From NCBI GenBank assembly GCA_900095095.1, contig FMBT01000293.1, positions 682,001-746,000 on the forward strand: a DNA stretch of 64,000 nucleotides, read 5' to 3'. Origin of the DNA: Fragilariopsis cylindrus CCMP1102. Taxonomy: Eukaryota > Bacillariophyta > Bacillariophyceae > Bacillariales > Bacillariaceae. A program made the position numbers and the translations under genes. Of the stretch, positions 30,986-64,000 are shown in pieces (positions within the stretch are counted from its first letter, which is position 1; each line of letters starts with the position of its first letter). Under the pieces are notes generated by a model that saw only the letters and a program-made list of their open reading frames with translations, was not told the DNA's origin and did no database searches.

Positions 30986-31080
30986 AGCAGGCATTTATAT
31001 AATAATTAGACTTCCTAGCATGCAAACTACTGTAGTGAGACAATACAAGTACATCCACTATCTTTAAATTTTGTTATTAG

Positions 31081-34000: not shown

Positions 34001-34851
34001 TCTGATGATGGTAGAGTCATGTTGTGGATTGTATCGATTTTTCCAACCATCGCCTTACTATGACGACTTTTCTTTGTCTTTATATTTATATTTGTCTTTC
34101 GTTTTCTTTTACGCTTTGCATTCATTTTGGTATCGTCCGGAGTAGAATAGCTGTCTATCAAACTGTTTCTCGCGGAATTGCGATGTTTCACACTGTAATT
34201 TCTATGATCTTCCCCTTTCCTTCTTTTCCTTCTCTGAGTCGAGTGATCACGAACAAACGTTGATTGCTTTCTTATCTTATGTTCCGACTCGTTTTTACTG
34301 GTAAGAGAAGCAGATGATTCCACTTGTCTTTCCAAGCCAAATGCGGGAGCAGGGAGATTCACTGGTGTTGTATCTGAACCCTTCATGTTATTTTTGGCTA
34401 TCAATGACGTGCCCGTTTTACGTTGATGCGATCTCTGTCCGCCACTCGATTTACGCTTTTTGCTCTTTGATCGTTTCTTCTTCTTGGAAGAAGAATGCGG
34501 TGGCGGCAGTGATTCCGCGGAAGAAGATATCGGTTCTTCCTCTTGTGTATTCTCGACAACAAAGGATGTCGGTGCAAATGAAGGACCAGCCGCATTGTTG
34601 TATCTAGAAATTGAATTTGTGCCGCTTTGGTCCGACCTCCTGAATGGTGCAAGACCCGAAGAGGAAGAGGAAGCGGAAGAAAACGTAGCTGCCTCCACGA
34701 AAAATATGCGACAAAGAAAGTTGTTGGTATATTGATAATTCTGCCATTTCGGAACAAGAAGATCCGTCAGAGAAGCGGAATATAGTGCGAAGAAAAGAAG
34801 AGCTCTTAATTTTGCTTTTAATAATAGAGATTGGTTTGTCATTTTATACAT
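31081..34851 (-). CDS. Inositol polyphosphate 5-phosphatase with long basic N-terminal region, frameshifted
   Basis: Catalytic domain of the 5-phosphatase superfamily (synaptojanin/OCRL type), which removes the 5-phosphate from phosphoinositides. Motifs in order: VTWNLAEESP, LVLISGQE, GIGNVFHNKGAIAAFV, VTAHLAAHVKN, FFCGDLNYRVDL, PTFKFDKES...YDTSHKQRIPAWTDRILF and HSDHRPVYGSYRI, so metal and phosphate ligands are present. About 820 residues precede it: a hydrophobic segment near the start, then Lys/Arg/Ser-rich low-complexity sequence with many KRKRK-like blocks and acidic repeats. Two opposite one-base shifts bracket about 85 nt: the frame leaves at 31888-31891, where a TAG appears next to a T run, and returns near 31800-31830. 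The middle piece carries the conserved GNxxxxKGA box, so the protein is legible across the break. The ATG at 34851 is the start. Confidence 0.83.
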
Positions 34852-35253
34852 TTGCAACTACTTGCGGATCGTCGTCTTCGGCGCCGTCGTCTCTAAGAGT
34901 CTCTAAAGACTAAAAAAATTGCAGCTATATCAGCTGGCAACGAGTGGTAGTCCAAGGTAAAGTTTGTCAGCTTTAAAGATACGTTATGATAACTTATTTC
35001 TTTTAGCTACAAGTTCGAAGTGTACAATGTACACATCAGGCCAACATCATGAGACTGAAGATTGACTGCTGTATTGCTCTATTGGACTTTTTACGTACAT
35101 ACAGTAATAACGCTGGCTATTAAAGTGGGGGTAAATTTTGAATTTGGAGGAAGAGGAGTACGAAAGATCACCCCTGTAACAATCAAACGTGAATGACTGA
35201 CTAAGGACTGACCATACAAATGGATATACACTACACACAACATATTGAAAAGC

Positions 35254-35669
35254 TCATACTGTAAATGTGTCTAGTGTCATAGGCATGGACTGTTTTATAT
35301 TATATGCATCATCCTTGTAGGGATTGCTTCCGTCAAACCGAAACACTAGCTTTAGTGCTTCATTTTCCTCTTCTTTTGTGCCATTATACAGGATAAATCC
35401 TGTTAGTTTCACAACAATCGATGATTGTTGAAACGGGTTCAGTATCAAATAGGATTGATATTCAGACAATCTTACTCTTCTTGTAAGATTCTGTTATGAG
35501 GTAGAAAAGATACTCTCGATTCTATAGACTGGTTGCGATGTTCTACCAGGATACTCTCCCTTTTAGAATGCTGAAAGTCCTTCCGAACAATGTTCACTCT
35601 GTAAATGTAGATATTTCTATTATCTTTCCAGACAACGATATGTTCAAACGCAAAAGTTGTTATTAACAC
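35254..35669 (-). CDS. Possible small two-exon gene or gene remnant
   Basis: Two adjacent coding-like stretches: one reading ITTFAFEHIVVWKDNRNIYIY (35500-35660) and one reading LTGFILYNGTKEEENEALKLVF and ending at a stop near 35254. A GT-AG pair (gtagaac after 35549, cataacag before 35490) would join them in frame with an intron of about 56 nt. No ATG is evident upstream and no family is recognised. It could be a fragment of a decayed gene. Confidence 0.25.
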
Positions 35670-36992
35670 ACTTGTTTAATTAGTCTATGGTTATTACACT
35701 TTCTCAACAATAAAAGACAGCAATTGTTCATTTCTCGTGATCGAGGTAATTCTGCTCTTTTCTTCGTATTTTAGTATTGCGGTTTCCAGTAACCCTGTAT
35801 ACAACTTTCTGTTCCTAACTCACTTCGCCTTAATACATATATATCGTATTAGCGGTTCAAAGGGGGACATCGACATCTGCTCGACTTCCATATGTATAAC
35901 ACTCTTCATGATCGTGTTCTATATATTCGGACACTCTTCCTAATCGTGTTCCGGTTTGTATAAATATACCTAAGCACTTCACTTATTTGCGCTCGGTTCC
36001 AATTGCTTCGACAACTGCTTCGACAAGGTCACTTCCTGTAGGCCTACTTGTTTCTGCTCATCCTTCACTCTCTCGGTGCGTATGCCATTGACTGCATATT
36101 GTATAAAAAATCCAACTGTTCACCTCTCTTTGGTGCATTGCATTGTATCCATACTCTGACCTCCGCTTTCTTTCTAGTCATGGTAGGGATAATGTGTCCT
36201 TGGTTGGTTATTCCATAGTGACACGTGTCTTACGCCTACTTCTAATAAAAACTAGTTTAACAGCTAGTTAGTTAATACAATAGTTTGGGAAGTCTTCAGT
36301 CTACTGAGCCTTAGGTATCTAGATGCACTTACAGGTTATGAGTATACACAGGGTTGTGTTATCTAAAAGTGCAGCTATGCTGACATAGTAGTAATTATAA
36401 TTGGATATTCTTAGAGTTGTGAGAAGATCTCTTATTCAATAAAAGAGACATAAAATAGAGATGTAGAAAGAGAACTTTGTTGCGTGTAGAATGGTATAGA
36501 AGGGAAAGATATGAGGGCCTACACTTAATAGGTATCATATATATATATTCAATATAAATGGAAAACCCCTTGATACTAGATTCCAAGATAGGATCATAGA
36601 CAAAAGTTGTAATGGATTGATTGCTGAATGTGAAGGTACAAGGGAATACTAAATTTGCAGGAGTGTCAAAGTGTTGAGATGAAACAGATGGATTGTTGGT
36701 GGAGGACAATGCTTTGTTTGGGTAACAATATATACTATATATATATATTATATGTCTGACAAAGTGATATCATGAATGCAGTTCCAATCAATGACAACCC
36801 CTTAGTTAACAGTCTGGATCAACAAAAGAAAGGAAAGGACAACATCAACTTTACCACCCAAATAGTGTTTTCCAAGAGGGTGTAGAAATTGGCTCTCACA
36901 GTGTTAATATCAGTGCTTGGAACATTAAGTTAAAAGAAGTAATTGCTGTATTCTTTACCATCTGTATACCATCAAAGCATTAGAACGGCTTT

Positions 36993-37045
36993 CCGGTTAT
37001 AGGGAATTTGGGTTATAGGGAATTTGGAGGTGTGCAGGTGTGCAA
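36993..37045. repeat. Short tandem duplications
   Basis: Two adjacent copies of a 17-bp unit (ggttatagggaatttgg, slightly varied) are followed directly by a doubled 8-9-bp unit (ggtgtgca). The function is unknown; replication slippage is the simplest explanation. Confidence 0.7.
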
Positions 37046-38400
37046 GACTGTGCTTCCACTGGTAAAACAACACATTAATTTTGCGTAGAGAGGATTTTCT
37101 GTCCAGTAGCTTGCCAGTTTGTGAGCGCCCTTCCAACTTGATCAGCCTAGTACATAACGGAGGAAATGAAAAAAATGACAGAAAACAATCAAAATGGTTT
37201 GCTCAAAGAAAATACCTCAAGTTTAATTGGTGAAATTGATATGGGTAGTTGGACTTGGAGGGCGCATAGAACTGCATACTGCATACAAAATCAACAGCAG
37301 GGTACTAAAGATTTATTCTATCACCTCTTCTAGCTAGCACAAAAAGATATCAACGAGGAGGGAGATTAGCAGCAAAAGAGCCCAATTGGGGAGGGATGGG
37401 GGTCTGCCTGATATTATTTGAATTATTATATCATCATCACCATCAGTCTAAGAAATTGTAAGTTGTAAACCTACAGATAAATCACTGCCACCACAGTCAA
37501 TGCTTTATGGAACATATATTATGTGTAGCATGTGGTGTCCGTCCATGACCAGATCTTATGGAAGACATGATGGATGGATCCTACAAGAATTTCCCTATTG
37601 TGCAGATCAAGTGATGACTAAAAATTTAATATGAGCAAAATCATATGTATGTCTGCTGGAAGTGCATGTGAACCGTGTCGGCATGTTTGGCTGGCGTGGT
37701 TTTCACATAAAAATCACCTGATTTTGTTGTATTTTACCTTGTAGCTAGGGGCAACTACAGGAGGTAGAAAAGATGACCAGAAACTACGCTATTTGGTTGA
37801 AGGAAGGGAAAGCCAGCATGCAACAGTACACTACGCCTGGAAATACTTCTGTTCTTCTGTTGTCCTTCAGACCCAGAAGATGATATACTACATAATGTTC
37901 CAGTAGGTTTAAATTATTTGCACATATATATGATGAGTTAGCTTGACAGACACACATATCAGTATTTCTCTGTAGTTGAATCAACCATTGTTTGTTCCTC
38001 GACTACTAGGCAAAAACTGTAGAAAAGTAGTGTTGTCTAATTTTTTCTTACTATATTTATTCAATCAATTCCCAAGAAGAATTGTATGTAGGTTGTGGTG
38101 CTTATTTTAGTCTGGCTTGGAATTTGGTTTATCTTTCTTTAAATTAAGTAAGATACTCTAACTGCACATAATTGAAGAAGACTGACTCCTATGATGAATG
38201 TTGAATGATGATAGATAATAAAGTATAATAATTGATTGTATGACATAAAAAAAAAGCCGTCTGTCTGCTGTTTCCGTGGACTATTAACTACCACTAATAA
38301 CATGACTTTTTTTATATCTTCTTTTTCACATGGTACAGTAAGTTAATAAGATCAGCACTTTAATTTTTTATTAACGTAAACAACATAAAATAAAAGACTG

Positions 38401-40503
38401 ATGGCAATGGCGTCAACCGAATCACAAGGAACTGAAGATACCAAATCAGGACGTGGGGATGACCCCCACTCGCTGAAAGTTAAACCGGAATATGTACTCT
38501 CGGCTAGGGCGGATAGTCTTGGACCCATACAAGTCGTAGATATTCCAGAAGGTCCTGGAGATGATAGAGATAATGATAGCAGTAATGGTGATAAACGAGG
38601 AAAGAAAAAACGCCGGTCTCGGGGTCAAAATAAGAAACGACCAAGAGATGCCCGTCAGGATGACTCTGAGAAGCTCTGTCTCAAAATAATTGGAGGAGAA
38701 ACGGCTTGTCCGTATGGTGATTCGTGTCGTTTCTCTCACGACTTGAAGGGATATATGGCAACTCGTCCGACCGATATTGTGGAGCTGACGGAGGCGATGG
38801 GTGGTTCTTGTCCCAATTACAAAAGTTTGGGTTATTGCATTTACGGAGCCATGTGTCGTGTGGGTTCATGTCATATTAATAAGGCGGGGGATAACTTGCG
38901 CAACGAAAAAGATACTTCTAGTGGGGAAGAAAAAGACGTCTCGTCTTCGTCTGACGTTGATACTTCACCCTCGTCCGGTAATGATACTAGCAATATCTTA
39001 CCACGAGATGTCCAGTTCCAGCTTAGGAAAAATAAATATCCATTCCAATGCAAACGACATTTTGAAGTGCGAGAGAAAAAAGAAAAAGACGACTGCAGTG
39101 ATAAAAAGGTAGAAATAAGCACCGAAGATATTACAGCTGCTACTTCAACTTCCGATGCCATCGACAGTAGTAAGACTAAAGATTCACCTCCCATCCAAAC
39201 AACAAGCCTTGCGACCTCTTCGTTCACACCTCTCGACAAGTTAAAAACCAAAAAGATCGTCGACTTTTCAAACAAGGTTTACGTGGCCCCGTTAACTACT
39301 GTTGGGAACTTACCTTTTCGGCGCATTATGAAGCAATTTGGGGCTGATATTACGTGTGGAGAAATGGCCTTATCTACTAATCTCCTCGAGGGAAAGGCTT
39401 CCGAGTGGGCATTACTCAAACGACATCCCAGTGAAGATATATTTGGGGTACAACTGGCCGCTGCCCATCCAGATCAGTTCACGCGTGTGTCTGAGCTCGT
39501 TGAAAAATATACAGATGTCGACTTTGTTGACATGAATTTGGGCTGCCCCCTAGACTTGTTATGTAATAAGGGAGCTGGAGCGGCTCTCATGATGCGGGAG
39601 CGAAAACTAAAAGGTGCTTTGGAAGGTATGTCAAATAATTTATCTTGTTCCATTACAGTAAAAATGAGAACGGGATGGAATATACACAAACCATTTGCGC
39701 ACGAGCTGGTGCCAAAGATTCAATCGTGGAATATTGATGGATTATCAGCCATCATGGTAAGTGCTGAAAATAGAGCTACTAGGGGAAGGTTATATTCTAC
39801 GTTGAAGGATGTTATAGACCATAGAAATATATTGTTTCGATCATTTATCTCAACTACGTATCAACGTTGCCCTCTACCTCTTTTTAAAAAACCTCTATAT
39901 CTATAGGTTCATGGCAGGTCGCGTCTTCAACGGTACAAATTAGATGCTAATTGGGATTACATTAGTCAAGTTGCAAATAGCGAGTCAAAAGACATTCCCA
40001 GCATTCCAATCATTGGGAATGGTGATATTTTTTCCTACTCGGAATACACCGAAAAGGTCGTATCTCATGCATCGCTGTCTCCAACGGCCATGCTTGGACG
40101 AGGAGCCTTGATTAAGCCTTGGTTACCAACAGAGATAAAGGAAAAAAGAGACTGGGACATATCCGCAACTGAACGTCTCGACATTCTGAAAGATTTTGTT
40201 AAACACGGTCTGGAACATTGGGGCTCTGATCAACAGGGCATCAATAATACACGACGCTTCCTTCTTGAGTGGCTCTCTTTTTTGTATCGCTATGTTCCTG
40301 TGGGTTTGTTGGAGGTACTCCCCCAAAAGATGAATCAACGCCCACCGTTGTATATGCAAGGAAGAAATGATTTAGAAACACTATTTCTTTCAAAAAACCC
40401 AGCAGACTGGGTCAAGATTTCAGAAATGGTCCTCGGTCCAGTGCCAGACGATTTTGCTTTCCGGCCAAAACACAAGTCTTCTAGCTACGAATCAAATGGA
40501 TAA
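38401..40503 (+). CDS. tRNA-dihydrouridine synthase 3 (DUS3/DUS47)
   Basis: Two exons: 38401-39756 and 39907-40503, with a 150-nt intron; spliced length 650 residues. DUS3 is the FMN enzyme that reduces U47 in the tRNA variable loop. The N-terminal third has two CCCH zinc fingers typical of DUS3 (CPYGDSCRFSHD and CPNYKSLGYCIYGAMCRVGSCH) between charged, basic and Ser-rich linkers. The TIM barrel starts at VYVAPLTTVGNLPFRRIMKQFGADITCGEMA and includes DMNLGCPLDLLCNKGAGAALM with the catalytic Cys, TVKMRTGW, VHGRSRLQRY (first codons of exon 2) and IPIIGNGDIFS...MLGRGALIKPW. The helical C-terminal domain follows and ends normally. All key motifs are intact. Confidence 0.95.
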
Positions 40504-40936
40504 AAGGAACGAAAAATACACTACTGAAAAAAATAATATATATTGATGTGTCAAGCTTGAAAGCAGATATCAATTCAAGGAAACGAATACAATTGTATGG
40601 TTTTATCTCACGATTTCATAATTTTGTCGAAAAACTTGTACTACGTTTGCGTATCTTACTTTTGAATGGTATCTGCTAGTATAGATATTGCATGTACTAT
40701 ATCAGTAGCGAACAGCATATATTGTACATTGATTGATTCACTTAGCATCAGTGCACCATATGTATACAAAGCAGAAACGATATGGGTGTAAGGCAGATTC
40801 TGCAGGATTAAAGTATATATAATGATTCTGTAAAGTTGACAGCTATTATCAAGGGTGTAAAGGATGCTAAATGCTTACCTCAAGTGTAGTAATTAGAAAT
40901 AAATGCAGGTACAAGTCGCGTACGCGCTAAATATCT
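40504..40936. other. Convergent intergenic spacer
   Basis: About 430 bases between the 3' ends of DUS3 (+) and the glutamate-synthase-like gene (-). AT-rich; no gene seen. Confidence 0.7.
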
Positions 40937-43900
40937 TTACCTTAGTGCCTTTGCTGTTATTTTAGATGCTAGACTACTGATATCATAAGAACTTTTCCAT
41001 ATTTTTAACAACGACTCGGGACCTTTAAGCTGCAATAAATCACCCTTTTCAACTTGCAAGTGGTCCCATATTTCCACATAGTGTTTCGACACACCGAGGC
41101 CTACCCGTCGAGTGACGTGACGAGGTTGGATCTTTGCCCATGATTCTATGCTAGTTGCTTCCATTAACTCCACACAAGCATTTACAGTTTCTCGTTGAAA
41201 GTTCGCTACTCTAACTTGCTTATATGATGGATCCTGTAGATTATATATATATATATATATATATATATAAGTATCGTAGTAAGAGAGAGACGAGCGAGTA
41301 GATGAGTGAGAGATAAGTCATAATAGAATGACGATACCATGCACTACGTAAGATAAATGATTGAAATAGTATGATTACGTACCAAACCCCAGCTCAAGGC
41401 GGGATCTTGCGTCGTTATGCCAGTCGGACAAGTATTTGTAGCGCATTTGAGCGCTTGGATGCACCCCAAAGAAAATAGAAAGGATCTAGCAGCGTTGCAC
41501 ACATCCGCGTGAAAATAGTACGACATGGTCGTTCTACTAGTTAGTGAATAATATTTTAAATTATGATTTAGATTACGTGGTTAATATTCTACAGTGGTCT
41601 GTCCGTCAACACTCCCATTATTTCAGTCCCCTCAAGTAAGTCGTGGGAAATGGAACAATATGGGGCATTTCTACTCACTTAATTGGTCTTTGATTAGTTA
41701 ATATGCAAGAAAAATAACTTGCTACATGTAAGAAAAATAACTTACTATTCCGGTGCAAAGAAATAGATCACCTTACCTACAAGGTGGTCTCGTTTAGCAC
41801 CAGAAGACAACGGTTTAGTTGCTATATCAGCACAGTTTTCATGTGTACTGATATGGCCCGTTCGACACTCATCTGCAGCCACATTCTCTCGAATATAATG
41901 GTAACAGATTGAGTTTGCTTTCTTTCTTAAAGTTGATTCTGGTTTTGATGTATTATATATCACAGACATATTATCTCCATATATGTATGTAGGTTCTTTT
42001 ATTGGAATACCCATCATACGAAGCTTATATCTAATGCCTTTGGTAACGTCCAGTCCTGTCTTCATGGCTATGAATTCAGCACCAAACACTGAGTTTTCGA
42101 TTCTAGTTTGTTTCTTACTGAACCACTGAATCGGTGCCTCGTTTAAGAAGACAAAGAATCCAGTTCTTGATCTTCGACTATTGCCATCTCCAGCAAAGTC
42201 TGAATCACAGAATAATCGCAGTATCACCTCCTGTCCTAAAGGTTTAGGCATCAGTGGTGGCAATTCTTCCTTAACATCTCCATAGAAATTATTCCAATCT
42301 CTCTTGGGGAAGTTCTCATGATCAATTTCTGGATAAGAGGGATCGAATATCATGACACTATTTTTCTTGTACTTTAGATATGAGAATATCCTAAATACTG
42401 CTTCTAGGTGACCTTCTCGTGGCATAGCCAACTGAGAAGCAAGTTCTGAAACTTCAGTTATTATATCAATTCTACCTAGTTCTACCATCCACCTTAATAT
42501 TCCTATTTGGGATTGATAGTAGGAGCATAATACCGGGTCAAGCTCAGGGCTCAAGTCCAGTTCTGGTCTATATCCATTAGCAAATGGACTAGTAGCATTT
42601 CTTTTGGGTTGTTTTCGCCCATTCATATTCTTCGCCAAGTAGTTATCTACATTGGTTACAGCTTCACTGACATATTTAGTGGGTGATATACCCCATGCAG
42701 GAATGTATTCTTTTTCATCATTTTCTTCGTTGACTTCACACTTCATAATCTTACCACCAAGATATATATCAGGGTCTCCTATGGAGTTTGGTTTCATTAC
42801 AAAGAAGTCATCTAACTTATCTAATTCAGCCGTGGCATCATGGTTAATGCACAGAGCGTCATCGACATACAGTAATATGTAGCCATAGTATTTAGTCCCA
42901 TCAGGTCTAATACATTGTTTGAGCCATACATCAGGATCGGCTTTGCAAGAATCATAGCCCATATTGAGCATACAATCTGCTAAATGATTCCTAAACGCTG
43001 CTCCAGCACTCTTAGTGCCATACAGTGCTCTTACGATAACACCTACTTTGCCCTTATCTTCACCAAATTCATCACCAAGGACTGTAAACAGCTTCTCAGT
43101 TGTTGGTGCAGTTAGGTACGCATTTTCAATATCTGAAGTTTTCACTTCTAATCCATTTAATGCAGCTATTGTTAAAGCAATCCTTACAGATTCTCGCGAT
43201 ACAACAGAAGCATATGTTAAACTAGCAGGGGTTCCGGTCTCATTGCCGTTGCCAACCATTCTAGCTTTCCTTTGGAAGTTCTCCATCTTAACATCAAAGA
43301 TAATATGGCATCCAATATGGGTAAATCCAACAGGCGCTTTTTCACCATGTGGTTTTATATCAAATGCTATTCGCACTTTACCCATTTCTTTCTTTATTGC
43401 CTTGGCCCATAGATCATTATCATTTTGATCATCTAATAGGAAAGCATCTTGCACTGTCTTAGGTATTTCGAACCCAAATTTGTGTGTTCTCTTGTGATAT
43501 CGAGAATTAACCGCTAGTATTATACGGTCTCTTTTGTTTAGAGTATATGGTACCCACCATTTGAAGGCAGGTTCATCATCTATACCAACTGATAAAGCAT
43601 ATTCTGCAACCTCTACAGGGTTTGATTCCTTTAGGTTAGCAAGCTTCTCCCAAGTTGTTGTACCATCCTTCCATTCTACACATAGGAGCCAACCTTTGGT
43701 GGTCTTGCGTAGGGATTTTCGGTTATTGACTGTTATGTAGGCGTCAGCCTTCTCGACAGCATGGCCATCTTTCTTGTGATCACAGATTGATTTCAACAAT
43801 AGATATTGTTCTCCATCAGCGTTACACTGTGCATACATATTTTCTGCTATAATGTTTGCAGTATATTCAGCTTCAGCACCATCAGGGAATTCTAGAATGT

Positions 43901-46900
43901 ATGCTCTAGTATCGAACATAACATCTATATGAGATGTCCCCTTAAGTGAGCCATCAGCTTCTCTTTTTCTTTCCCTAACTCTAGCTGTGCGCATCGAGTC
44001 TTCATGTGGGAGTAGAACTTCTGCACCTATATATGCATCGAAGTCTTGATACTCATCCCTGTCTTGTACTTCAAAGGGTTTCGTATCTTTATCCTTATAA
44101 GGTTTATTAATAGGAGTTACAAATTCTTCAAATTCATCTTCGAAATCTGATTCTTTTGCAGCTGGTCCTAGAGCCTCATGGATTTGGATTGTATATTGTT
44201 TCATCTGTTCTATTTTCACAGGATCATGGTACTCATCTTTTGTCAATGGTCTATAAGTAGACACATGTCGAGTGTTTCCATTTTCTTTTAGTATCTTACC
44301 AGTCATGGCAGGGCCAATATCGATGGATGGTCCAAGCCAGCGACCTAATACTAATTTGTCCTCAGGAAATGATATCGCTGAGTCATGATACAGGCACCAA
44401 TCATACCAACCTAATTCGAAGAATTGGGATATGTCAGCTGTTTGACCTGTCATACGTGTTTGGGGTACTTGCCCTTCCAATTGCCAAATGTCTATTGCAG
44501 TATGTGATTTAATGAATGATTCTAATTCAATACAATCATCCCATATACGCTTAGGACATTGGGTTTCCATCATCTTTCTTCCAGACGATTTCTTTACCTC
44601 TCTTATAGCTGCTTCCGCAGAGTTAGAGAATGGTGTATACGGTTCTGTTTGTTTTGTTTTACAGTCAGCCTCAGTGCATTTACGTCTGAAGTTACCATGT
44701 ATTTGAGCTTTTGCTCCATCCATCACAATGACGTCAGGGACGCCTATGTCTTTAAAGAATTTAGATAAAGTGTGATGTGCTTCAGCTTCCTTTCTTATTG
44801 GATAAGCACGAGTATAACCGAAGTCAGTACTGTACATCTGAGCATATTGATTTTGTCTTTTAGATTTTACTGTTGATTTTAATGTGTCAGTGAAAACAGT
44901 ATGTGGTATTCTTCTATACCTTAACATTCTGTCATTTGTCCTGAACCTTCTGCTAATAGCAGGGTTGGCAATATGCCTCACACCTCTTTGTGTTGTGACT
45001 CGCAGCGTGTTTTGTGCTTGTCTTAGTGGTATCTTCCATGTCGATGCTAACTTTTCAGCTGATAAGCCTTGTCGATTTGACGTTGAAGTAGCAGAAAGAT
45101 TCCTATTTTCTTTTAATAGATCAGCAAATACATCTTCATTTAGCAAAGGATCTATACTGTTAAGTATTGCTTCACCTTGAGAGGTGGCGCGATCATTCCT
45201 TGATAGAGAATTCAATGCAGCTACTGATAATTTCGTTGTTATTGGGATTTCACTTATGGATTTAATGACAAATCTATCAGGTCTGTCCCCTGGCTCTTTT
45301 AATTCGCCATAGTTATCAAGCATTGCAGCTTCAGCCAGTTCATATTCCTTAGTCTGTGGATCCCAAGTGAGATCTGCACTAGTCAAGGTTAAACGTGGCA
45401 ATATTTCGTATTGTTTTAACGTTGGTTTACTAACATGAAATGTCGACGTCACACCTCTTATAAGAAGTGGTATTCGAAGTAGTTCATTCGTGTCAGTTAC
45501 TCCAGACATTGCATGTGTTTCGCTAGTCGGATTTTCAGTCATACTCTTTGGGTGTTCATTAAGTATGATATCATTCTCACGGACTTGCATTGGACAAAGT
45601 AAGGAGTGTTTCATGTTTTCTAGATAAATAGCTTGGTGTATTACTAATATGTATTGCGAACCAGTATAGTGTGTATATAAAAATGCTCCACTAAGTATTG
45701 GTGTCGTTACAGTACCCACGGAAGGATCAGCAAAAGATACTATTGCTGTTCTTTCCGGATATGGGGTTTCTACTTTTAAAGCATTACAGCCTAACACACA
45801 TGTGTCGGCGTGCGAATCGAGATCAATATAAGATTCTCCATCCTCAATATCCATTATAGAAGATATTGTCACATGTACAGGCATAAGATAACGAACTCAG
45901 CGTTTCTTACGAGGTACTTTGAGGCTTGATGATTTCTTAGATTTCTTCTTCTTCACCGGTCCATCATCTGAATCGGTGTCATCAATCAACATATCGTCGT
46001 CTGTATCAGATAAATGCTCAACCATAGCAGATTCCGAAACGAGTTGTTCGATTTTAGACTTCATTTTGTTAAGAGTCTTCTTATTTTTCATGACAGCAGT
46101 TTTAACTTGGCTGACATTTGCCTTGTGAGGGCTACCCTTTTTGGTATTGCGTCTACTATTCTTACGCAAGTAGTTGCGTTGATTCTTTTTCAAACCATTC
46201 CATTCGACGGTGGTATAATACCTACCATTATCGATCTTAGAAGAATCATAATTGGCTGAGGGATCATATCCATCCTCTTCACCACCAGTTTTGTCTCCTT
46301 GACGCGTGCGATTACCTCCGCCATTGCGAGAGGAGGTTGCAGAAGAAACATTAACATTACTCTTTTGTTCTTTAGTATGTTGTTTCTTTGACTCAATGAA
46401 AGTGCGGTATGTACCAACAACCTTATCGAAAGTGTCTAGTGCTGGATTTGCACTTACTGTAGCCTTAACTGTATCCAACCGGGATCAGTAATTCCAAGAC
46501 TAAAAAGACGGATCTTCGATGTTTCATCGATGCCTCTATGATTGCTCATAACCTTAAGATGCTCAAGTATGGTATGTTGATCCATATGAGCTAAGACATA
46601 TTTCTCGAATCCCCAGTTACGCTTATTGCCACCATCAAGTGTCATAGTTTGTAACTTATTTTCAGCCTTAGATGCATAATTCGCAACGGCTTGGGTTCCT
46701 AACAATGCTGTATATAATGCAAAGTAGGCAGCACGACCATCTCGTGACTGCTGATGAGCTTTGATGTACGTATAGTACGGAGTACCATAGCAAATCTCAT
46801 ACAAAATCTTCCAAATAACAACACGATCGAGCGTGTAGTAATGGGTGTATGTCGTTGTTCCAGGAAGGAAGATTGGTGCTCGCGCAACCAGTTCATGGTT

Positions 46901-49900
46901 AAATGACGCAAACGTACTTCCGACAGTTCCAAAAGTGGGCTCCAACGCCTCAGGTAGTGGTCCTTCATTCTCACGATAGACATAAGAGAGAGGAATTTTC
47001 GATACACTACCCACCATATCAAGTGTGAACTCGCCAAACTCTGTAAAGAATTCAAATACTTTGTTCGCATTGATTTTAGGTGCTTCGGAAATCTTTAAGT
47101 TGACTTGTGCTTCGATTTCTATCTTATAGTCTCGCATAGTCTCGATGCTACCAAGGGTAACATCAGCAAAAGCACATGTTCTAGATACATTCGCACATGT
47201 GCGAATATAGAACGAGGCTAGCTTAATATTGTCAGCATGTAAAGCTGCAATAGCAATTCCAGGATTTGGATACATAGCTGGGTAAACTGCACCAGCTGCA
47301 CCACCTGCGACTGGGGCTCCTGCGTTAGGATGAACAATCATCCCACCAGGCTTGCGACAGACACGACATAACTCCTTAATAGAGTCATCAGTTAGTCGTT
47401 TTAGTATAGTTAAACTATTGATCGATTGATCATGCACCATGAAGTGTGCTGCTTGGGGTGATAAGCCAAGCCGACCGAATAGGCCCCTCATTGCTGCATT
47501 GTCCATTGTGTTGTTTAATGGTTATTATTGAAACTAACTTGTAGTTTTAATATCTTCTACAAAACTTATTACGTGTTTGTTTATCCACAAGTTTCGAAAA
47601 GTGAGTGAAGAAAAGTGAAGAAAAGTGGACCTTTATTTTGGGTTGTATTTTCAGTTATTTCGCTTTCTCGTTTTTCGCTCTAATTTACTTAGTACAAATG
47701 CTGTAGAATTCTACAGCACAGTTTTCAGCCTAAGTAAATTCATTGTATTTTTCGTTAGTTTTGGACGGAGTCACTCAATTATTAGGAGTGTTAGTGTGTT
47801 AATAGTGCCCAACGCGCGAATGATTAATCGGGATTGATTTTCAGGTGTATCAATTCGCAGTTTAGTATCAGGGCACATACATGAATATTGAAATTTTCCG
47901 TCTGTGGAGTACAAGCTAGTCCGCGCCTGCCACATTTCACCCCTTAGAAGTCCCGCGGAATCAAATCATGACTTCAATTACGCGTAACATCAAGTGGTAT
48001 CTTTAATTTCGATTCTATTTTTGAACTTCAATACGCTTAGGAGTGTCAAATTTTCCCTAGACGCGACTTAATTTTGTCAGTTGAGGTTACTGTTTGTTGA
48101 TACACATCAGTAAGTATGGCTTACGAGTGAATTTTTCATTGATATGCCCTTTGGTTTGTATTGAGCTTTGTGTATGGCTGAACGATTAAAGCGCAAGCCT
48201 GTCACGAAAGTATAAGATAGTGCTTAAATTGAGTCTATTTTAGCTCTATTTTAGATTGATTTTCAAAATACTTTTTCTTTTGATTATGACCATGGCATCT
48301 GGTTTCGAAGCAGAACCTTGTTATTGTATTTAGCTATCAGGTATAGCCTTAGTACAACACCATGAATGCGGAACGATTCATATGGTTGGTGTTGGTATGT
48401 ATCATCACTTTATCGTGAATATACTGTTTATATTTTGTCGCAAAATCGATACGACTCGCTTTTACGGAATTCATTCAAAATGAATTATCTCATCCGTTTG
48501 TTGATCAAAATGATCAATCAAAGCATACATCATCCTTATTAGAGACTACCTATGCAATCTTAGCATGGTTAGAGTACTATATGGGTCTGATAAACTGAAA
48601 ATAGTACGACATGGTCGTTCTACTAGTTAGTGAATAATATTTTAAATTATGATTTAGATTACGTGGTTAATATTCTACAGTGGTCTGTCCGTCAACACTC
48701 CCATTATTTCACGCGCCTAGAGCGAAAGTTCGGAACATAGACATGCCCGTTAAAACCTTCCCACTTGCAATCAAGGCAATTTTAGATCGAGATTTGTCCT
48801 GTGGATCTCGTAATCCTACTCCAACTAATACAGCGTGCACAAAGGACAGTCCTTCAGCTAGTGGAGTTCCTACTGAATTTGAAAACTCAGGGGGAGCAGC
48901 CCCCGTACCACCTTCTCCACCGTCTACGGTGATAAAGTCAGGATGGATTCCTGTCTCAACGAATGCTTTTACTAAATCGCAGAATTCTTCCGGTTGTCCA
49001 ATGCATAGTTTCATTCCAATCGGTTTTCCGTTCGACAATGTACGAAGTTTCTGAATGAATTCACAGAGCTCAAATGGATTGCTGAACGCATTATGCTTTG
49101 ACGGTGAATGACAATCTTCTTGACAAGGGTAATCTAGATTGCGTGCCTTAGCGATGTCCGGGCTAATCTTTTCCTTTGGCAACATGCCGCCGTGTGCCTA
49201 TGAAACGGGAAAAATAAAAGTCAGATAAGAAAGAGAGAAACAGACAACCCGTTCGACGATGATAAAAGTGCCAGTCAAATTGTAATTGAACAGAGAATCC
49301 ATCGCCCTACTTACCGGCTTCGCTCCTTGCGACAACTTAATTTCTACCATTTTAGCATGTTTCACATTCTCGACAAACATCTCAGGATCAAATACACGCA
49401 CGCCACCTTCAGAAAATTTTCCACAACCGAAGTATGCGGTGCCGATGTTCCATACGATGTCAGCTTTACCTTTTAATGCGAACAAAAGGAAAGATTGAAC
49501 ACAACACAAAATAGTGTTTTTTCAAGAAGTATTTAATGAGTAAAACGAGTTATTGACCTCGTTAAGTTTGCAAAAATATCGGGTAACATTTTGAACTGAC
49601 CTTCCTTGTGGTATTCGCTTATTCCACCTTCACCAGTATTGTGGGAGAATCCTCCAAGTTTCGCTCCAGCGCTCAACGCTAGTATCGCCCGACCAGATAA
49701 TGCTCCAAAAGACATTGCACTTATATTCAACAAAGAAGAACTATACGGCTGAGTACATTCAGGGTTGTTCCCACCAACCAAGACCCGTTGATCCTGGGCC
49801 ACCAAGGTGGAAGGATATAAACTGTGGTTGATCCATTCATACCCGATTGCATCTGCATCACGGCGGCTTCCAAAGGCCATAGTAGCTGTAATGCCTTTGC

Positions 49901-50542
49901 TTCGTTGGTAGGCAATCGCACGGTTATTCCTGTCATACGGCACACCTTTTTCGTTGTCTGCCTCAACAAACTGGTAAAAAGATTCAGGTCATCAAGTATA
50001 GGTACAAGAAATATGTTAGGAATGAAATCATTCTTGTGTTGCAAGTTGAAAGTATTGAAACACAAATTTCATTTACTTGAAGAAATCATCATTTGATTAA
50101 TATACTCACGTATTGTCGAATCTCCGGGCCTACATGAGTAAATTCGAATTCAATCAAGTTAAGTACAAGACATATATATTAGAAATAAGATTCTTTTTCT
50201 GTTGCAAGTTGAACGTACTGAAACATAGATTTCATTTGCTTGGAGAAATCATCTTTTTTTTTCTTCAAATACTCACGAATCATCTCTAATAAATACCGAG
50301 CATTGCCAAGGACAGGGAAGTTCCGACGAATTGTCTGTGATTTTTGTTTCATGTCACGAAGACCAACTACCCAATAAAAACCTATTAGAGCATAGAGGAA
50401 AAGGTGCGGTTCAATTTAGTCTTGGGAAAATTATGAAAATTACGACACGTATTCAAACAAATGTTTCATAGTTTGAAATATTCTAACAAAAGATAACAAT
50501 CATTTTGATCGTCACATATGTATGTACACACACACATACACA

Positions 50543-50581
<39 letters not shown>

Positions 50582-50809
50582 AATATATATATATTTATAT
50601 CTGTAATTACCTGTCAGAGCACCCAATCCAGCAGTAAACAAAATAGTGTGCTCCTCAAAGATCATAAATGTGTTCAAAGACGACGCAAGTGTAAGACCGG
50701 TCAATCCGTATCCTACTTTTCGGAATTTGTTTCGATTCCATTCTTCAATGAAATCAGGCAAACCAGCACTAACGTCCTTGAGACTAACTTCGGCTGTTAT
50801 CGACACCAT
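40937..50809 (-). CDS. FMN-binding glutamate-synthase-like protein, split by a copia insertion
   Basis: Host gene on the minus strand with seven exons: 50611-50809, 50277-50381, 50110-50129 (20-nt microexon), 49601-49970, 49315-49469, 48712-49197 continuing at 41383-41505 beyond the inserted element, and 40937-41233. Phase is kept at every GT-AG junction. Host-derived codons total 584, so the gene is fully open except for the insertion. It belongs to the Glu_synthase (FMN-binding) family of stand-alone proteins, not full GOGAT. Two N-terminal membrane spans (WNRNKFRKVGYGLTGLTLASS onward) precede NFPVLGNARYLLEMIRPEIRQY and the FMN barrel (ISAMSFGALSGRAI, NTGEGGISEYH, DFITVDGGEGGTGAAP). The Fe-S loop CIQALKCATNTCPTG has C-x5-C-x4-C spacing, as in the 3Fe-4S site of glutamate synthases. 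The element sits between GGC-GCG and GAT-GTG codons (LGA/DVC), just before that loop. The reaction of this family is not known. Confidence 0.88.
41241..41269. repeat. (AT)n microsatellite in last intron
   Basis: An uninterrupted TA dinucleotide run within the last intron of the glutamate-synthase-like gene. Confidence 0.9.
41510..41625 (-). repeat. 3' LTR of the copia element
   Basis: 116 bp, starting tgaaaatagtacgac on the plus strand and ending cccattatttca. No difference from the other LTR was found on base-by-base reading. It is short for a copia LTR. Confidence 0.93.
41745..45884 (-). CDS. Copia pol region (protease, integrase, RT, RNase H)
   Basis: One long reading frame (about 1,380 codons) encodes the pol part of the element. 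In order: an aspartic protease motif (DLDSHADTCVLG) near the N-terminus, an integrase core, a copia-type reverse transcriptase with KARMVGNG and LLYVDDAL motifs, and a C-terminal RNase H with CDSDFAGD...RSRTGF. This order (integrase before RT) identifies Ty1/copia rather than Ty3. The part appears whole. Confidence 0.92.
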   Translation of the reverse strand: MPVHVTISSIMDIEDGESYIDLDSHADTCVLGCNALKVETPYPERTAIVSFADPSVGTVTTPILSGAFLYTHYTGSQYILVIHQAIYLENMKHSLLCPMQVRENDIILNEHPKSMTENPTSETHAMSGVTDTNELLRIPLLIRGVTSTFHVSKPTLKQYEILPRLTLTSADLTWDPQTKEYELAEAAMLDNYGELKEPGDRPDRFVIKSISEIPITTKLSVAALNSLSRNDRATSQGEAILNSIDPLLNEDVFADLLKENRNLSATSTSNRQGLSAEKLASTWKIPLRQAQNTLRVTTQRGVRHIANPAISRRFRTNDRMLRYRRIPHTVFTDTLKSTVKSKRQNQYAQMYSTDFGYTRAYPIRKEAEAHHTLSKFFKDIGVPDVIVMDGAKAQIHGNFRRKCTEADCKTKQTEPYTPFSNSAEAAIREVKKSSGRKMMETQCPKRIWDDCIELESFIKSHTAIDIWQLEGQVPQTRMTGQTADISQFFELGWYDWCLYHDSAISFPEDKLVLGRWLGPSIDIGPAMTGKILKENGNTRHVSTYRPLTKDEYHDPVKIEQMKQYTIQIHEALGPAAKESDFEDEFEEFVTPINKPYKDKDTKPFEVQDRDEYQDFDAYIGAEVLLPHEDSMRTARVRERKREADGSLKGTSHIDVMFDTRAYILEFPDGAEAEYTANIIAENMYAQCNADGEQYLLLKSICDHKKDGHAVEKADAYITVNNRKSLRKTTKGWLLCVEWKDGTTTWEKLANLKESNPVEVAEYALSVGIDDEPAFKWWVPYTLNKRDRIILAVNSRYHKRTHKFGFEIPKTVQDAFLLDDQNDNDLWAKAIKKEMGKVRIAFDIKPHGEKAPVGFTHIGCHIIFDVKMENFQRKARMVGNGNETGTPASLTYASVVSRESVRIALTIAALNGLEVKTSDIENAYLTAPTTEKLFTVLGDEFGEDKGKVGVIVRALYGTKSAGAAFRNHLADCMLNMGYDSCKADPDVWLKQCIRPDGTKYYGYILLYVDDALCINHDATAELDKLDDFFVMKPNSIGDPDIYLGGKIMKCEVNEENDEKEYIPAWGISPTKYVSEAVTNVDNYLAKNMNGRKQPKRNATSPFANGYRPELDLSPELDPVLCSYYQSQIGILRWMVELGRIDIITEVSELASQLAMPREGHLEAVFRIFSYLKYKKNSVMIFDPSYPEIDHENFPKRDWNNFYGDVKEELPPLMPKPLGQEVILRLFCDSDFAGDGNSRRSRTGFFVFLNEAPIQWFSKKQTRIENSVFGAEFIAMKTGLDVTKGIRYKLRMMGIPIKEPTYIYGDNMSVIYNTSKPESTLRKKANSICYHYIRENVAADECRTGHISTHENCADIATKPLSSGAKRDHLVGKVIYFFAPE
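45897..47506 (-). CDS. Copia gag region
   Basis: Upstream coding part of the element, with Ala-rich and helical sequence followed by a Lys/Ser-rich, basic C-terminus. It fits a capsid/nucleic-acid-binding polyprotein by position; no classic zinc knuckle was noticed. It probably holds about one break, or a family-typical change of frame. Confidence 0.75.
48596..48711 (-). repeat. 5' LTR of the copia element
   Basis: 116 bp, identical to the copy at 41510-41625. The element is transcribed from this end. Directly to its right the host exon resumes with the CGCG duplication. Confidence 0.93.
50525..50600. repeat. (CA)n and (AT)n microsatellites in intron 1
   Basis: A CA run, broken once, passes into a TA/ATATTT run inside the first intron of the glutamate-synthase-like gene, close to its donor site at 50610. 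Confidence 0.9.
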
Positions 50810-51583
50810 TGCTATTGTCTTTTGGAGTCGAAAGATATCGAACTGAGCTTACTCGCAAGCTCGTAGGCTTTTGCTGAAATCGACGAATTGAACGGGACAC
50901 AATAAGACAATTCTTCATCTTCTATATCTGCACAGGATCGAAATGTGATGCAACTCTTTGTTTGACTTTTTTCCTTTCGGGTTCTAACAACTTTAAAACT
51001 ATGTTTGCTATTATAGTTTATTTTTGATGTAATTTCTTTCTTCGCTTCAAAATTGGACATTTTTTTTGTTTTTTCGTGACATCTTAAGATCTCACATTTC
51101 TTATCTCACTTCACACAAAAACGCATGATCGAACTTCCATCATTGCTTCTACTTCTAATAAACCTACAATGATGTACAAGTCGTAGCTCAATCATGCGCA
51201 GATTTTAAAAAAAGCGCGTTAATTACTGCTATTGCGCTAATAGGGTCAAAATTCGCGCTGATCTTGATCCTTACACCTTACTAGTAAGGAGGAAGGTGCA
51301 AAAGATACAATTCTAAATCTTTAAGCGTGACTGAATTATTTTGTAAAATACTTTTTGGCGAAAACACCAGCATGAAGAATGATAGTAAGCAAGCAAGCGA
51401 TAACAAGGCTTATTTGACACACATAACAAATATCGCCGATTTTCTTTTCTTTTTTTCTTTCAACACAATTTTCATAAGTGTACATGTTGACGATCATGAT
51501 AACGAATTGGTACTGTACATATAATCAAAACTGAAAATCTCCGCTACTGAATAGTCGAAGGCGTTAGCAATAGAGTAATTACT
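50810..51583. other. Divergent upstream region with an 82-codon open frame
   Basis: About 770 bases between the starts of the glutamate-synthase-like gene (-) and the gene at 51584 (+). On the minus strand an ATG-initiated frame of 82 codons (51060-50812) ends with TAG only two bases before the ATG at 50809. It could be an upstream ORF, or an N-terminal extension put out of phase by one base. Its sequence (FNSSISAKAYELASKLSS) is coding-like but not recognised. Confidence 0.5.
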
Positions 51584-53613
51584 ATGACGCAACATCAGTG
51601 TTACGATGAATTGGAGATTGATCGCCCGAGAATATGTGGAGGTGCTGTTTTCCTTAAGCTCATGAAATCTGGACGGTGTGGGTCATCATCTCATTCATTA
51701 CAAAAGATACAGAAGAGGAATGAAATTCCTGTCCTTACGTCTTCTTCATCGTCGTCTTCTTCCTCAATATCCAGATGGATTTCAGATGGATCAGCGCGCT
51801 CATTATCGACAACTTCAAACATCAACAACATGTACGATCCTTTAAAGACGTGGTATTGTATGCCCAGACAGATTGTGGGAACAGGAACAAAATCTTCAGA
51901 GTATAACGATTCTTGCAAACTAGACTTCAAGTTGCACGAGGAAGTGAACTCCGATTTGTTTTTCACCAAGGAAGATCCAAACGACTTATCACCAGAAATC
52001 AAGGTTGAAAAAAGTGAATTGCAATTGGAAGAGCATGTGTCGTCACAAAATATTATTAGATTCGATCCGCATTTAGTAAACAATCTTAGAACAGAACATT
52101 TACAGTCCATTGGCGATACTATTTACTGTGCTGAAAAACAATTAAGGGCGGAGCACGAGGATCTATCAATGGCGTGTCTCCAAGATCATTCCGAAGAACA
52201 GCTTCCTGTACTATCCGAGATAACACCTCCTGAACTTGAGCAGGCAGACGATGTTGACGAAAATAAGGATGTCGATGCGGCATGGGGTGCTCTACAGCGG
52301 GTTACAATCGCTCAGAAATCGTGCAGAGATGGCGAAAAAACAAATTATATCGACGGACTCGAGCAAAATCAAGGACCATATGATTCTAAAGCTGTTGTGG
52401 GAAAAAATGAAACGAATCATTCCGTCAAGAACTTGATGATGTCAAGGAATCACTACTACAATACGAGCTTAATCCAAATCCGTGGCCCGATGAGGATGAT
52501 CCCTGGGATAAAATTGATTTATTCTCGATGAAGGATCAGTCACAAGACGATGATAACTGTGCACAGAAATACTTCAAAAGTGAGTGGAATTTAAACTTTA
52601 ACAATCCAGACAACGATAATAAAATAGAACGAAGCGAAATTGCTGGTACGAGGAAAACTCTGACCGAGAATGAAATGAAAACTGAGATCTGCCATGAGAA
52701 TGTTAACTATTGTACTATCTATCAGGATTCAGACAAACACGAGACAAATTGCATGGCATCTTCAGAACCAATATTATCTGAGGACAGAAGAGGTAAAATG
52801 TGTAACCAAATAGAATCAGAATATAACAATAATTATGTCACCGTATCAGTTGATTCAAAAATACTGAAAAGTGAAAATGCTGCCAACGTATGGTTGAAGT
52901 CTGCTACATCACCTCCCAGCAAGATTGAGTCAGAAATTCTTGAAAACCGCATCATGATGAAATCTACCGATTCTAAAGCTGAAGGAAATCAAAACATCCA
53001 CCAACCAAAAACAAACATTTCAACTTCATGTAGTAATTTAGCACAAAAAGAAGGAACGCATTCTAGCGAAAATCAACAGGTATCACATACGATGCCGGAT
53101 ATGATGAATGAGAATGCATGTAACAACTACGTGTCAAGCGAATCTGATTACCACGAGGATATGAAAGTTGTTCGTAAGCTTCTGAAAAAGTACGGTGAAA
53201 GCTATGAAGAGCCTTGCTTGAAAAAATCAATGCATCGCAAGGGGTCAAGTACTAGTATTCACCGAGAAAATCCGTTTTGTTCAGAAGGACTAGAGAATCC
53301 TTATGATGAGGAGTTCCATCGTGATGCTGATTTGGCTACACAAGTGACAAACAAGAACAAATCCCACAAAAAAACACAACTAGCAGGAAAACTGAACGCC
53401 GAAAGGAGATCAAATTTACTGCAGCAGAAGGATCACATAGTAGGAACATCTCTTCAGGAGAAATCCAATTTTTCTGGTCGTACACCATCAACGAAGACCA
53501 ATCAAGTGCATTTCAAGAACCCTATCACGGATGAATTTACTACCACAACTAAGCGTCATGTTCAAACAGTAGGAAAGTTGTCCTATGACAAAATCAAATT
53601 CTGGAATACCTGA
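51584..53613 (+). CDS. Unrecognised hydrophilic protein, one frameshift
   Basis: About 676 codons with no domain I recognise. The protein is rich in Ser, Glu, Asp and Asn, probably largely disordered, and has a polyserine run (near 51735-51765). The first frame stops at 52529-52531, but the continuing frame is open well before that: it reads ELDDVKESLLQYELNPNP, then WPDEDDPWDKIDLFSMKDQ. The shift therefore lies near 52400-52440, beside a run of six A, and equals one missing base. The acidic-aromatic WPDEDDPWDKIDLF stretch is the most motif-like part. The C-terminal part has YDKIKFWNT at the very end. It may be a regulatory or scaffold protein; I cannot say more. Confidence 0.6.
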
Positions 53614-53883
53614 GGGAAAATGTAAATAACCACTAATCAAATTAACTAGGACCGACACAAAAAATGAAAACGTCATTAATTATATGTTATTTCTCAATCT
53701 TGTAGTATTTTCCAATTTTTTTTATGTCTTGACTTATTCTCGAGCTTTCGGAGAGTGTAGTTAACGATCTTGATGCTGAAAATAAAGGTGTCTACACGTC
53801 TGTACGTGCAGCAAAATCAAATGTAAACATAGGAAAGAACATAGAAAAGGAAAAACCAACAGGTTGAGCCGTCACCTGCTCCT

Positions 53884-56529
53884 TCAGGAGACAAGGAGTG
53901 CATTTGATGATGTTCTGTTTACAGAAGCGACCTCTGCAGACTGTACCAAAGGTTGTACCAAGATCATGTCACCATTCTTAATATTTTCCTCCGATAGGGC
54001 GAGCATCCCGTTGCACCAAATCTGAACATCCTGATCGTCGAATGAGAAATTGTTTTCCTGCCGTAGAGTATTTATAACGTCCATTATTTTCGAGCCTGCC
54101 GAAAGGGTTAAAATTTGACCGGCTTCTACCGACGACGACGATCCTGCTGCGAGAAAAACGTACACATGGGAACGTACAAGGTTTTGTTGAGCTTTCTGAA
54201 GGGCATATATATAAGGTCCTGGAGCTGAGGAATCGATGTCTCCGACAGGCGATATATTATAATTAATAGGATCTTCATGCGACGAGATGACTAAAGTTGA
54301 CGAATCAGCTTTCTCCAAAAATACGGTAGAATCCGGCCCTTGGGAGGGATAGCTGGATCCCAGCTTGTACTGGGAGTGTGCCGCAACTCCAAACTCTGCC
54401 TGTCGATCCATCTCCTCACTGCGAATTTGGACCTCGAAGAAAAAATCTTGATTGTTTCTCGTGATCTTACTTGTATGATGTAGACACTGGTAACCATTTC
54501 TCTTGGGATATCGAATGTAATCTTTAACTCTTGCAGGATCTGTCTCTGGCCACTGGGATCTTAGCAAATGATGGATGTAATAACACAATATTCGCTCTCT
54601 ACCTCGTGTAGTCTCGTCGGACTCATCTTCATCTAGCTTTCGTGCCTTCAGGATGACTCGCAAAGCAACTCCATCATTAACATCCATAATGGATAGTTCA
54701 GTCGTAGATGATCGTATCAACTGATTGGTTCTACGAATATCGTTGCTACCCTTGTTATTTACTGTCACGGCGGTAGTAGGAAGAAAGCGTTTCTTCAAGA
54801 GTTTCTTCCAGAATGAGAAAGGTTCTTTCACCCGCGACAAAACTTGTAAGTTTTCCAACTCAAACATGAGAGAATGATCATCGTAAAGTAATTGCTTTAA
54901 TTGTCTGGATAGATAATCAGATATAGCCGTCATAGCTCCTCCATGTTCAAGAAACAAGGTGGAGGACGCAGAAAATTGCCGCGGATAGAGGATACGAAAT
55001 GCTTTGGATTCAATTTGCGACCGAAGACGATGCAGACCCATCTGCTGTGACAAAGTAGCATACAATTGTAAAGAATCCTTGGCTGTAAGTGTAGTCTCTG
55101 GATTTCGGTGTAGAAGGAACTGTCCCGAGCCAGATAAGTTCGATTTTTTCAGAATTCCGTCCAATCGATATAGAGAAGCAATACAACGAATTGCTAACGC
55201 TCTCCAATCGTCTGTGAGACTGACCATAAGATTTCTAATTTCAGCATATTCTCCTTTTTTCAGAGGCCGTCTTCTTTTATTTTGTTCGTGGATTTTACCA
55301 TCATCACTATTAGAAGAAAGAACGACACTTGTTAAAATTTCACATCTTTTTAATCGCGATGCAGCCTTTGCAAGGTGTAAAGATTCGACTGTAAAAATAC
55401 TATCCAGAGCTTTATTATTGATGAGCGCTTCTTGAGATGACGAACATGATGATAGCAATGAAATGGGTAAAGAACAAAACGATTCTTCGACGTCTTCTGC
55501 CGTTACTACGGAATCTTGTTGAGGACTAAAGTTTTTACATCCTTCAACAAAACCATCGCCTTATCGGAACTGGTATCTCGTTTTGTCAAATGTGCAGACA
55601 AAGACCCCCCTTGTTCAGTAGGTCGCCCATCATCAGGAGAAGTATCAGAAGCAGCGTAACATAAAGCTTGCTGCATCTCTTCGTAAACCCCATCGTATCG
55701 TGCATTTAAACATTCTGAAAAATGCAATATACTTGCGAGTAGAATATCCTTAGTGACAAGATTGTTTTTATTGATATTGTCCTCTTTATTTTTATTGCTG
55801 TAGTTCTTTGAGTTCTTGTTTACGATCACATTATTTTTAACGATATTTGTATCGTTATTTTCTACCTCTTCTTCTAATTGTAACATTAACCTACAAAAAG
55901 CGACGCTGCCAAGTATTTTGGATACCTTATTGTTTCTGTTTTGTACATCCGAACACCAGTAGATTGCTCGAATTATATCAGCAACATCAGCATCTGAAAA
56001 TAGATGACCTCCCCTAAAGGATAACAACGAACGTTCCAACCATTCTATTTCTTGCCGAATGCGTCGTTTCGAAGATTCTGCTGCTTCTGCTGTGTGTGTT
56101 GACGATTTCACTTCTTTTTCGAGTAATTCTAGCCATGGTGGTAGCCGAGACGAAGAATCCAACGACGACAAACGTGGGGATACTACGAGACAAGAAGAAG
56201 TATCGATCAAATTTCGTTGTTGCTGCTGATGCTGCTGTTTGACCGATGAAACAGAAACGGCACAATCATCGTCAGCAATATCATTTTCGTCATTAATATT
56301 ATTGTAGGTCACATCTAATCTCCACCACCACAATTTATTGTTCCTTGTGGTGACGCATTTTCTATCACGCAAAGGTGATGTTGGTGCACGGATGATAAAA
56401 GGCAAGCGTGGAAGAAAAAGAAATACTCCAGGAAGACAAACTAACCAAAGATAGAAAGATTGTTGTGCTGCAACACCTTGCTGATCTTTCAGTTCGGGGT
56501 CTTTTTCTACTAGCACTTGTAGCGACCAT
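53884..56529 (-). CDS. RelA/SpoT homologue (RSH), ppGpp synthetase, probably plastid; frameshifted
   Basis: The synthetase domain is complete: RVKEPFSFWKKLLKKR, MDVNDGVALRVIL, VKDYIRYPKRNGYQCLHH and FEVQIRSEEMDRQAEFGVAAHSQYK carry the (p)ppGpp synthetase ATP/GTP-binding and catalytic residues. A TGS domain ends the protein (AGQILTLSAGSKIMDVIN...IWCNGMLALSEENIKNGDMILVQP). The upstream half is HD-like in position, but the usual LHD...ED signature reads LHFSECL, so hydrolase activity is probably lost. The N-terminus (MVATSASRKR..., hydrophobic IFLSLVSLSSWSISFSSTLA, then F) looks like a plastid signal-transit leader. Two one-base shifts are seen: one in the leader (about 56380-56480) and one at a run of A near 55527, where KDVK would continue NFSPQQDSVVTAEDVEE. 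RSH enzymes make the alarmone ppGpp that tunes plastid transcription and translation. Confidence 0.83.
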
Positions 56530-63939: not shown

Positions 63940-64000
63940 TTTTTTCTTTTTCTTATTCTTAAAGTATGTATGTTGTTCCTGGTGCTACAAATTGTGGGAA

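Follow-up and report, generated by a model that had tools for sequence, protein, structure and literature searches.

In the diatom Fragilariopsis cylindrus CCMP1102, a Ty1/copia-type LTR retrotransposon has, in all probability, inserted into a glutamate-synthase-like gene on one of two chromosome copies, with the other copy of the gene left empty. We draw this reading from assembled sequence and hold it with high confidence. The occupied copy lies in the window, by which we mean the whole stretch of 64,000 nucleotides that was analyzed and which is part of contig C679 in the genome that we searched (818 contigs, 67.9 Mb). Here, the element splits a metabolic gene in two within its exon 6. A matching stretch without the element is present in the same assembly on contig C389 (33.5 kb).

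Structure of the element and of its target gene

The element is 7202 bp long and lies on the minus strand in the same orientation as the host gene. It is bounded by LTRs that are identical across 116 bp and have TG...CA ends, and directly outside each of these stands a copy of the 4-bp duplication CGCG (Table 1). Its pol frame gives an RVT_2 Pfam match (E 8e-13) at residues 851-1019 of 1379, which places the reverse transcriptase late in pol, as in copia. A preliminary description of this DNA had proposed a copia element inside a coding exon, with identical LTRs and an intact target duplication; the LTR pair (116/116 bp equal), its TG/CA ends, the CGCG on both sides and the RVT_2 match all bear this out. 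The pol stretches before the reverse transcriptase match no Pfam family up to E 1, and the protease and integrase are assigned there by eye; the motif LDSHADT we take to be protease-like. In the putative primer-binding stretch, which adjoins the 5' LTR on its inner side, the first 13 bases are equal in all seven full-length copies of the family (see below) and the next bases vary in two of them, while the putative polypurine tract GAGGGGAC is unchanged in all seven. ARAGORN found no tRNA within the window. The gag of the window copy is split over two frames, as opposed to the single 541-aa gag frame seen in three of the seven copies, and, apart from the gag-pol stop, the frame is broken at least once in every copy. 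Given that such breaks affect all seven copies and that indels outnumber substitutions between C389 and C679, they are likely to be assembly errors.

With the element left out, the host gene (minus strand, 50809-40937) comprises seven exons with GT/AG borders and 584 codons. The rebuilt model thus gives the same count as the preliminary description, and the interval singled out there, 41383-49197, is exactly exon 6 plus the inserted element. The micro-exon, exon 3, codes for part of RPEIRQYF, which is largely conserved in the six bacterial relatives that we aligned. The product is a short glutamate-synthase-like FMN/Fe-S protein: it matches Pfam Glu_synthase (PF01645; E 7e-75) over residues 187-513 and has the C-x5-C-x4-C cluster motif as well. 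Comparison with NCBIfam gave weak matches, far below the cut-offs. A six-frame search of the genome recovered, besides the gene on C679/C389, four PF01645 matches, two of them strong (C299 and C651) and two weak (C297 and C265). The insertion parts A445 from D446. The break had been placed between LGA and DVC before the Fe-S loop, and this is indeed its position: C460, C466 and C471, which we take from known glutamate synthases to be the ligands of the Fe-S cluster, stand 15 to 26 residues further on. G444, A445, D446 and these three cysteines are invariant in the alignment of seven proteins (the host protein and the six bacterial relatives).

Table 1. Coordinates in the window of the host gene and the inserted element
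Feature	Position	Strand	Basis
Host exon 1, start codon at 50809	50611..50809	-	gene model
Host exon 2	50277..50381	-	gene model
Host exon 3, 20-nt micro-exon	50110..50129	-	gene model
Host exon 4	49601..49970	-	gene model
Host exon 5	49315..49469	-	gene model
Host exon 6, portion preceding the element, to codon 445	48712..49197	-	gene model
Host exon 6, portion following the element, with the Fe-S cysteines	41383..41509	-	gene model and alignment
Host exon 7 with stop codon (stop ends at 40937)	40937..41233	-	gene model
Ty1/copia-type LTR retrotransposon, 7202 bp	41510..48711	-	LTR pair, 4-bp duplication, RVT_2 Pfam match, six further full-length copies
5' LTR, 116 bp, TG...CA	48596..48711	-	identical to the other LTR
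3' LTR, 116 bp	41510..41625	-	identical to the other LTR
Target site duplication CGCG, copy 1	48712..48715	.	sequence
Target site duplication CGCG, copy 2	41506..41509	.	sequence
Putative primer-binding stretch, adjoining the 5' LTR on its inner side	48571..48595	-	role inferred from position
Putative polypurine tract, adjoining the 3' LTR	41626..41640	-	role inferred from position
gag, first part, 355 aa, stop to stop	46454..47521	-	open frame
gag, second part, 195 aa, other frame, TGA at end	45897..46484	-	open frame
pol, 1383 aa, with reverse transcriptase RVT_2	41745..45896	-	open frame and RVT_2 match

An empty site on a second contig

Each flank of the insertion matches one other contig, C389, on which the two flanks adjoin with a single CGCG between them. 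The alignment of C389 covers window positions 27497-35403, 36121-41509 and 48712-64000, and continues for 4949 bases along C679 past the window with no substitutions and one gap. The empty allele with a single CGCG that had been predicted is what this junction holds, and heterozygosity, the main guess of the preliminary description, gains support from the presence of an occupied locus (C679) and an empty one (C389) in a single assembly. We infer that the insertion is heterozygous and that the two contigs represent the two homologues of one diploid strain.

Over the 27,769 host bases that lie outside two messy stretches, we count 9 substitutions and 13 indels between C389 and the window. This amounts to 0.32 substitutions per kb, which may be too low a figure if consensus polishing merged the haplotypes. 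The PacBio/FALCON assembly of F. cylindrus is described as having 745 primary contigs (59.7 Mb, maximum 1.26 Mb) and 288 alternate contigs (9.1 Mb), and its polishing may have removed haplotype differences (PMC5634323). Publicly available for F. cylindrus CCMP1102 are the assembly and reads (PRJEB15040), RNA-seq data (E-MTAB-5024) and fosmids (AC275650-AC275663) (PMC5634323). Five of the substitutions between the contigs fall within the gene, two of them intronic, two silent and one changing A424; the alleles of the two contigs are distinguishable in exon 6 at 48777 and 48901. There is also a second insertion difference, about 5.4 kb from the element, in the form of a solo LTR (approximately 35404-36036) that is flanked by CCTG in the window and is missing on C389.

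The copia family and the age of the insertion

An LTR search of the genome recovered at least six other full-length copies of the element. Single LTR matches on C78, with a primer-site-like sequence beside the LTR, and at C679:453358, a partial relic, were not counted as solo LTRs. A 4-bp duplication flanks six of the seven full-length copies, the exception being the one on C664; the chance of at least six such duplications in seven is about 2.5e-14 under equal base frequencies. Across all seven LTR pairs there is one difference in 825 sites (95% upper bound 0.68%); it belongs to C664. In their internal sequence, the window copy differs from each of the six others by 1.6-2.1%, and those six differ pairwise by 0.23% (C265 versus C527) to 2.6%. 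As the LTR pairs are nearly identical while the copies are mostly this far apart, most insertions probably postdate the split of their lineages, although this may not hold for the C265-C527-C664 group. None of the copies recovered is the direct source of the window copy. The pol dN/dS values in three comparisons between copies are 0.020, 0.024 and 0.037, the changes being almost all silent, as expected for a lineage that kept transposing.

For each of the other six copies, we also searched a single flank against the genome. C90a and C90b have element-free counterpart contigs (C166 and C224), which are either alleles or paralogues, with flanks 92.6-97.0% identical, and C664 has a counterpart for its left flank only, on C526. 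The searched flanks of C265 and C527 have no other match in the genome, and that of C341 has short partial matches with no full second contig. Counting the window locus, an empty counterpart is found for three of the seven insertions. The counterparts of C90a and C90b count in favor of the heterozygous reading of the window locus, whereas the results for C265, C527, C341 and C664 count against it.

The insertion had been described as very young. The identity of its LTRs stands, but an age is not readable from 116 bp alone: no difference in 116 sites allows up to 2.6% divergence (95% upper bound), which at a rate of 4.8e-10 per site corresponds to some 2.7e7 generations (the published mutation rate for Phaeodactylum tricornutum is 4.77e-10; PMC6604790); the LTR dating argument is therefore weak. 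Accordingly, dating by LTR identity alone was dropped for lack of power, as was dating by the divergence of the flanks, where polishing may hide haplotype differences; LTR identity, too, could be affected by polishing. It is conceivable, then, that the insertion is not young but has long been retained in the heterozygous state in a lineage with little sex. We judge this unlikely, while granting it real weight. It would accord with the distance of the window copy from every other copy, with the weak LTR bound and with the report that insertions in P. tricornutum have been heterozygous for at least a century (PMC2806351). Against it stand the single change in 825 bp across the LTR pairs, the 9,636 aligned bases of the left flank with no substitutions between the haplotypes, and the interrupted frame, which is otherwise open.

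State of the two alleles

The absence of any sign of decay in the gene, as previously claimed, holds for the occupied contig, whose frame is open apart from the element, but C389 is one base short early in exon 1. Were this deletion genuine, the reading frame of the empty allele would be lost close to its beginning; since indels outnumber substitutions between the two contigs, an assembly error is the likelier cause. That both alleles of the gene are broken, one by the element and the other by this loss of a base, strikes us as improbable.

The same contigs could be obtained from a culture in which two close lineages, with and without the insertion, are mixed, rather than from one heterozygous diploid: C389 and the window contig are distinct haplotypes, and the balance of the alleles is not readable from contigs. 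However, a diploid that is assembled in a diploid-aware manner would be expected to yield allelic contigs, and the flanks of three other copies likewise match a second contig, which makes a mixture very improbable in our estimation. A chimeric join on C389 that merely skipped the element might be suspected from the shortness of this contig and from the many single-base indels and the two messy stretches between the contigs; but such an artefact would have had to drop exactly the element and one CGCG, and would leave the substitutions and the solo-LTR difference unexplained, and we attach next to no probability to it. Finally, it is scarcely credible that the element is spliced out or tolerated with the full protein still made from the occupied allele, for although the element shares the orientation of the gene and the remaining frame is kept, the occupied frame, when read through the junction, has a stop as its very first codon within the element. 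Given this stop, the predicted product would be without the cluster cysteines and the final 139 residues, and the occupied allele would on this account be null.

Returning to the reading of a heterozygous insertion, we propose that reverse transcription of a Ty1/copia-type retrotransposon, probably a CoDi element, was followed by integration, in which its integrase would have cut exon 6 at CGCG with a 4-bp stagger on one chromosome copy, with the empty site kept on the other. The reading frame of the occupied, presumably null allele ends at codon 445 and so does not reach the Fe-S cluster cysteines; the cell would tolerate this thanks to the remaining uninterrupted copy and to the other genes that have the domain.

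If reads bear the locus out, it would offer a natural allele-matched knockout, a single strain that has the bacterial-type gene in both interrupted and uninterrupted form, in which allele-specific RNA could show the effect of an LTR insertion in a coding exon on expression. It also suggests that this copia family is still generating presence/absence differences between haplotypes. Were both alleles broken instead, the strain would have been caught in the course of losing a bacterial-type gene.

Comparison with known proteins and diatom elements

The host protein has bacterial relatives about 50% identical to it. A pattern-based scan of bacterial and archaeal genomes gave 35 loci, bacterial by their titles, with best segments 46-54% identical to it. 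The proteins from six of these 35 loci were aligned, and show 51-54% identity over approximately residues 70-570 with the cluster cysteines conserved. Unlike these short glutamate-synthase-like proteins, the diatom gene has introns and about 70 additional N-terminal residues. Among PDB entries, full glutamate synthases match the host protein over residues 191-490 only (best E 1e-24).

The element itself is probably of the diatom CoDi kind. A search of viral_contigs with its reverse transcriptase gave no match. An integrase chromodomain is reported for the CoDi-A and CoDi-I elements (PMC2774666, PMC5348765), and the region at 43602-43919, after the integrase region of the window copy, looks chromodomain-like by eye; it has no Pfam match and no PDB match up to E 1, and its AlphaFold2 model has a mean pLDDT of 39. 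In the account of the CoDi elements by Maumus and colleagues, full-length elements range over 5182-8062 bp, within which the 7202 bp found here falls, while their LTRs, at 153-844 bp, are longer than the 116 bp found here; most of the putatively active ones have at most one stop or frameshift between gag and pol (PMC2806351). A full-text search for heterozygous LTR insertions in diatom genes gave, among the matches listed, no title on the present gene. The same account describes many insertions as being in one haplotype only, among them Blackbeard of P. tricornutum, reported in 2009 as a haplotype-specific insertion with a TTCC duplication (PMC2806351). As in the present case, a copia-type element occupies one haplotype and an empty site the other, and both TTCC and CGCG are 4-bp duplications; as opposed to Blackbeard, the present insertion lies in a coding exon, that of a glutamate-synthase-like gene. 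Haplotype-specific LTR insertion is thus a type of event known in diatoms since 2009, and the present case is of the same kind.

Differences between the window and the empty allele

The interrupted glutamate-synthase-like gene lies about 5.4 kb from a second insertion difference between the window and C389, the contig carrying the allele empty of the copia element. Here the window holds an LTR of another, high-copy family, with CCTG on both sides, and C389 is without it, both as read by eye. Among the 40 scored of 172 candidate matches across the genome, 39 others match this LTR at 96-97% and many are paired, approximately 8.6 kb apart; none of the 40 provides a second match on C679, the contig that holds the window. 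The LTR is apparently solo.

As for substitutions, 11 of the 20 between the window and C389 are concentrated in 772 bases (61626-62397), which also hold many single-base indels; either the two contigs truly diverge in this block or sequence quality is low there. Further, two overlapping plus-strand frames join near 52416, where C389 is one base longer than the window, probably reflecting an assembly indel in one of the two contigs.

Features of the window and of a related copia copy
Feature	Position	Strand	Remark
DUS3-like dihydrouridine synthase with CCCH fingers	38389-40503		Opposite side of the interrupted gene from the RelA/SpoT-type gene
RelA/SpoT-type gene	53887-55560		Close to the interrupted gene; matches PF04607 with E 6e-21
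Overlapping frame 1	51551-52531	plus	
Overlapping frame 2	52411-53613	plus	
LTR, apparently solo	35404-36036		Of another, high-copy LTR family
TGA ending gag	45897-45899		Just ahead of pol
L019, full-length copia copy	C664:112812-120014		

Variation within the copia family

In all seven full-length copies compared, the gag-terminal TGA and its context are identical except for one base after the TGA. In the five for which both frames are listed, pol sits next to gag in the same frame; silent-site divergence in pol is about 8-10% in three comparisons between copies. This arrangement points to readthrough of the stop, or else to translation starting again from the ATG right behind the TGA. Three of the seven have a single 541-aa gag frame, unlike the window copy, where gag switches frame at 46454-46484, a shift that may be real or an assembly error.

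L019 has no target site duplication and its LTRs differ at one site. One of its flanks has a counterpart on the contig C526, and the other finds no match in the stretch of C526 that was fetched, a pattern that might follow from recombination between copies.

Behind the integrase region of the window copy, 43602-43919 looks chromodomain-like by eye; Pfam, PDB and structure prediction gave no confirmation of such a domain there. A chromodomain is present in the CoDi-A group of diatom Ty1/copia-like elements.
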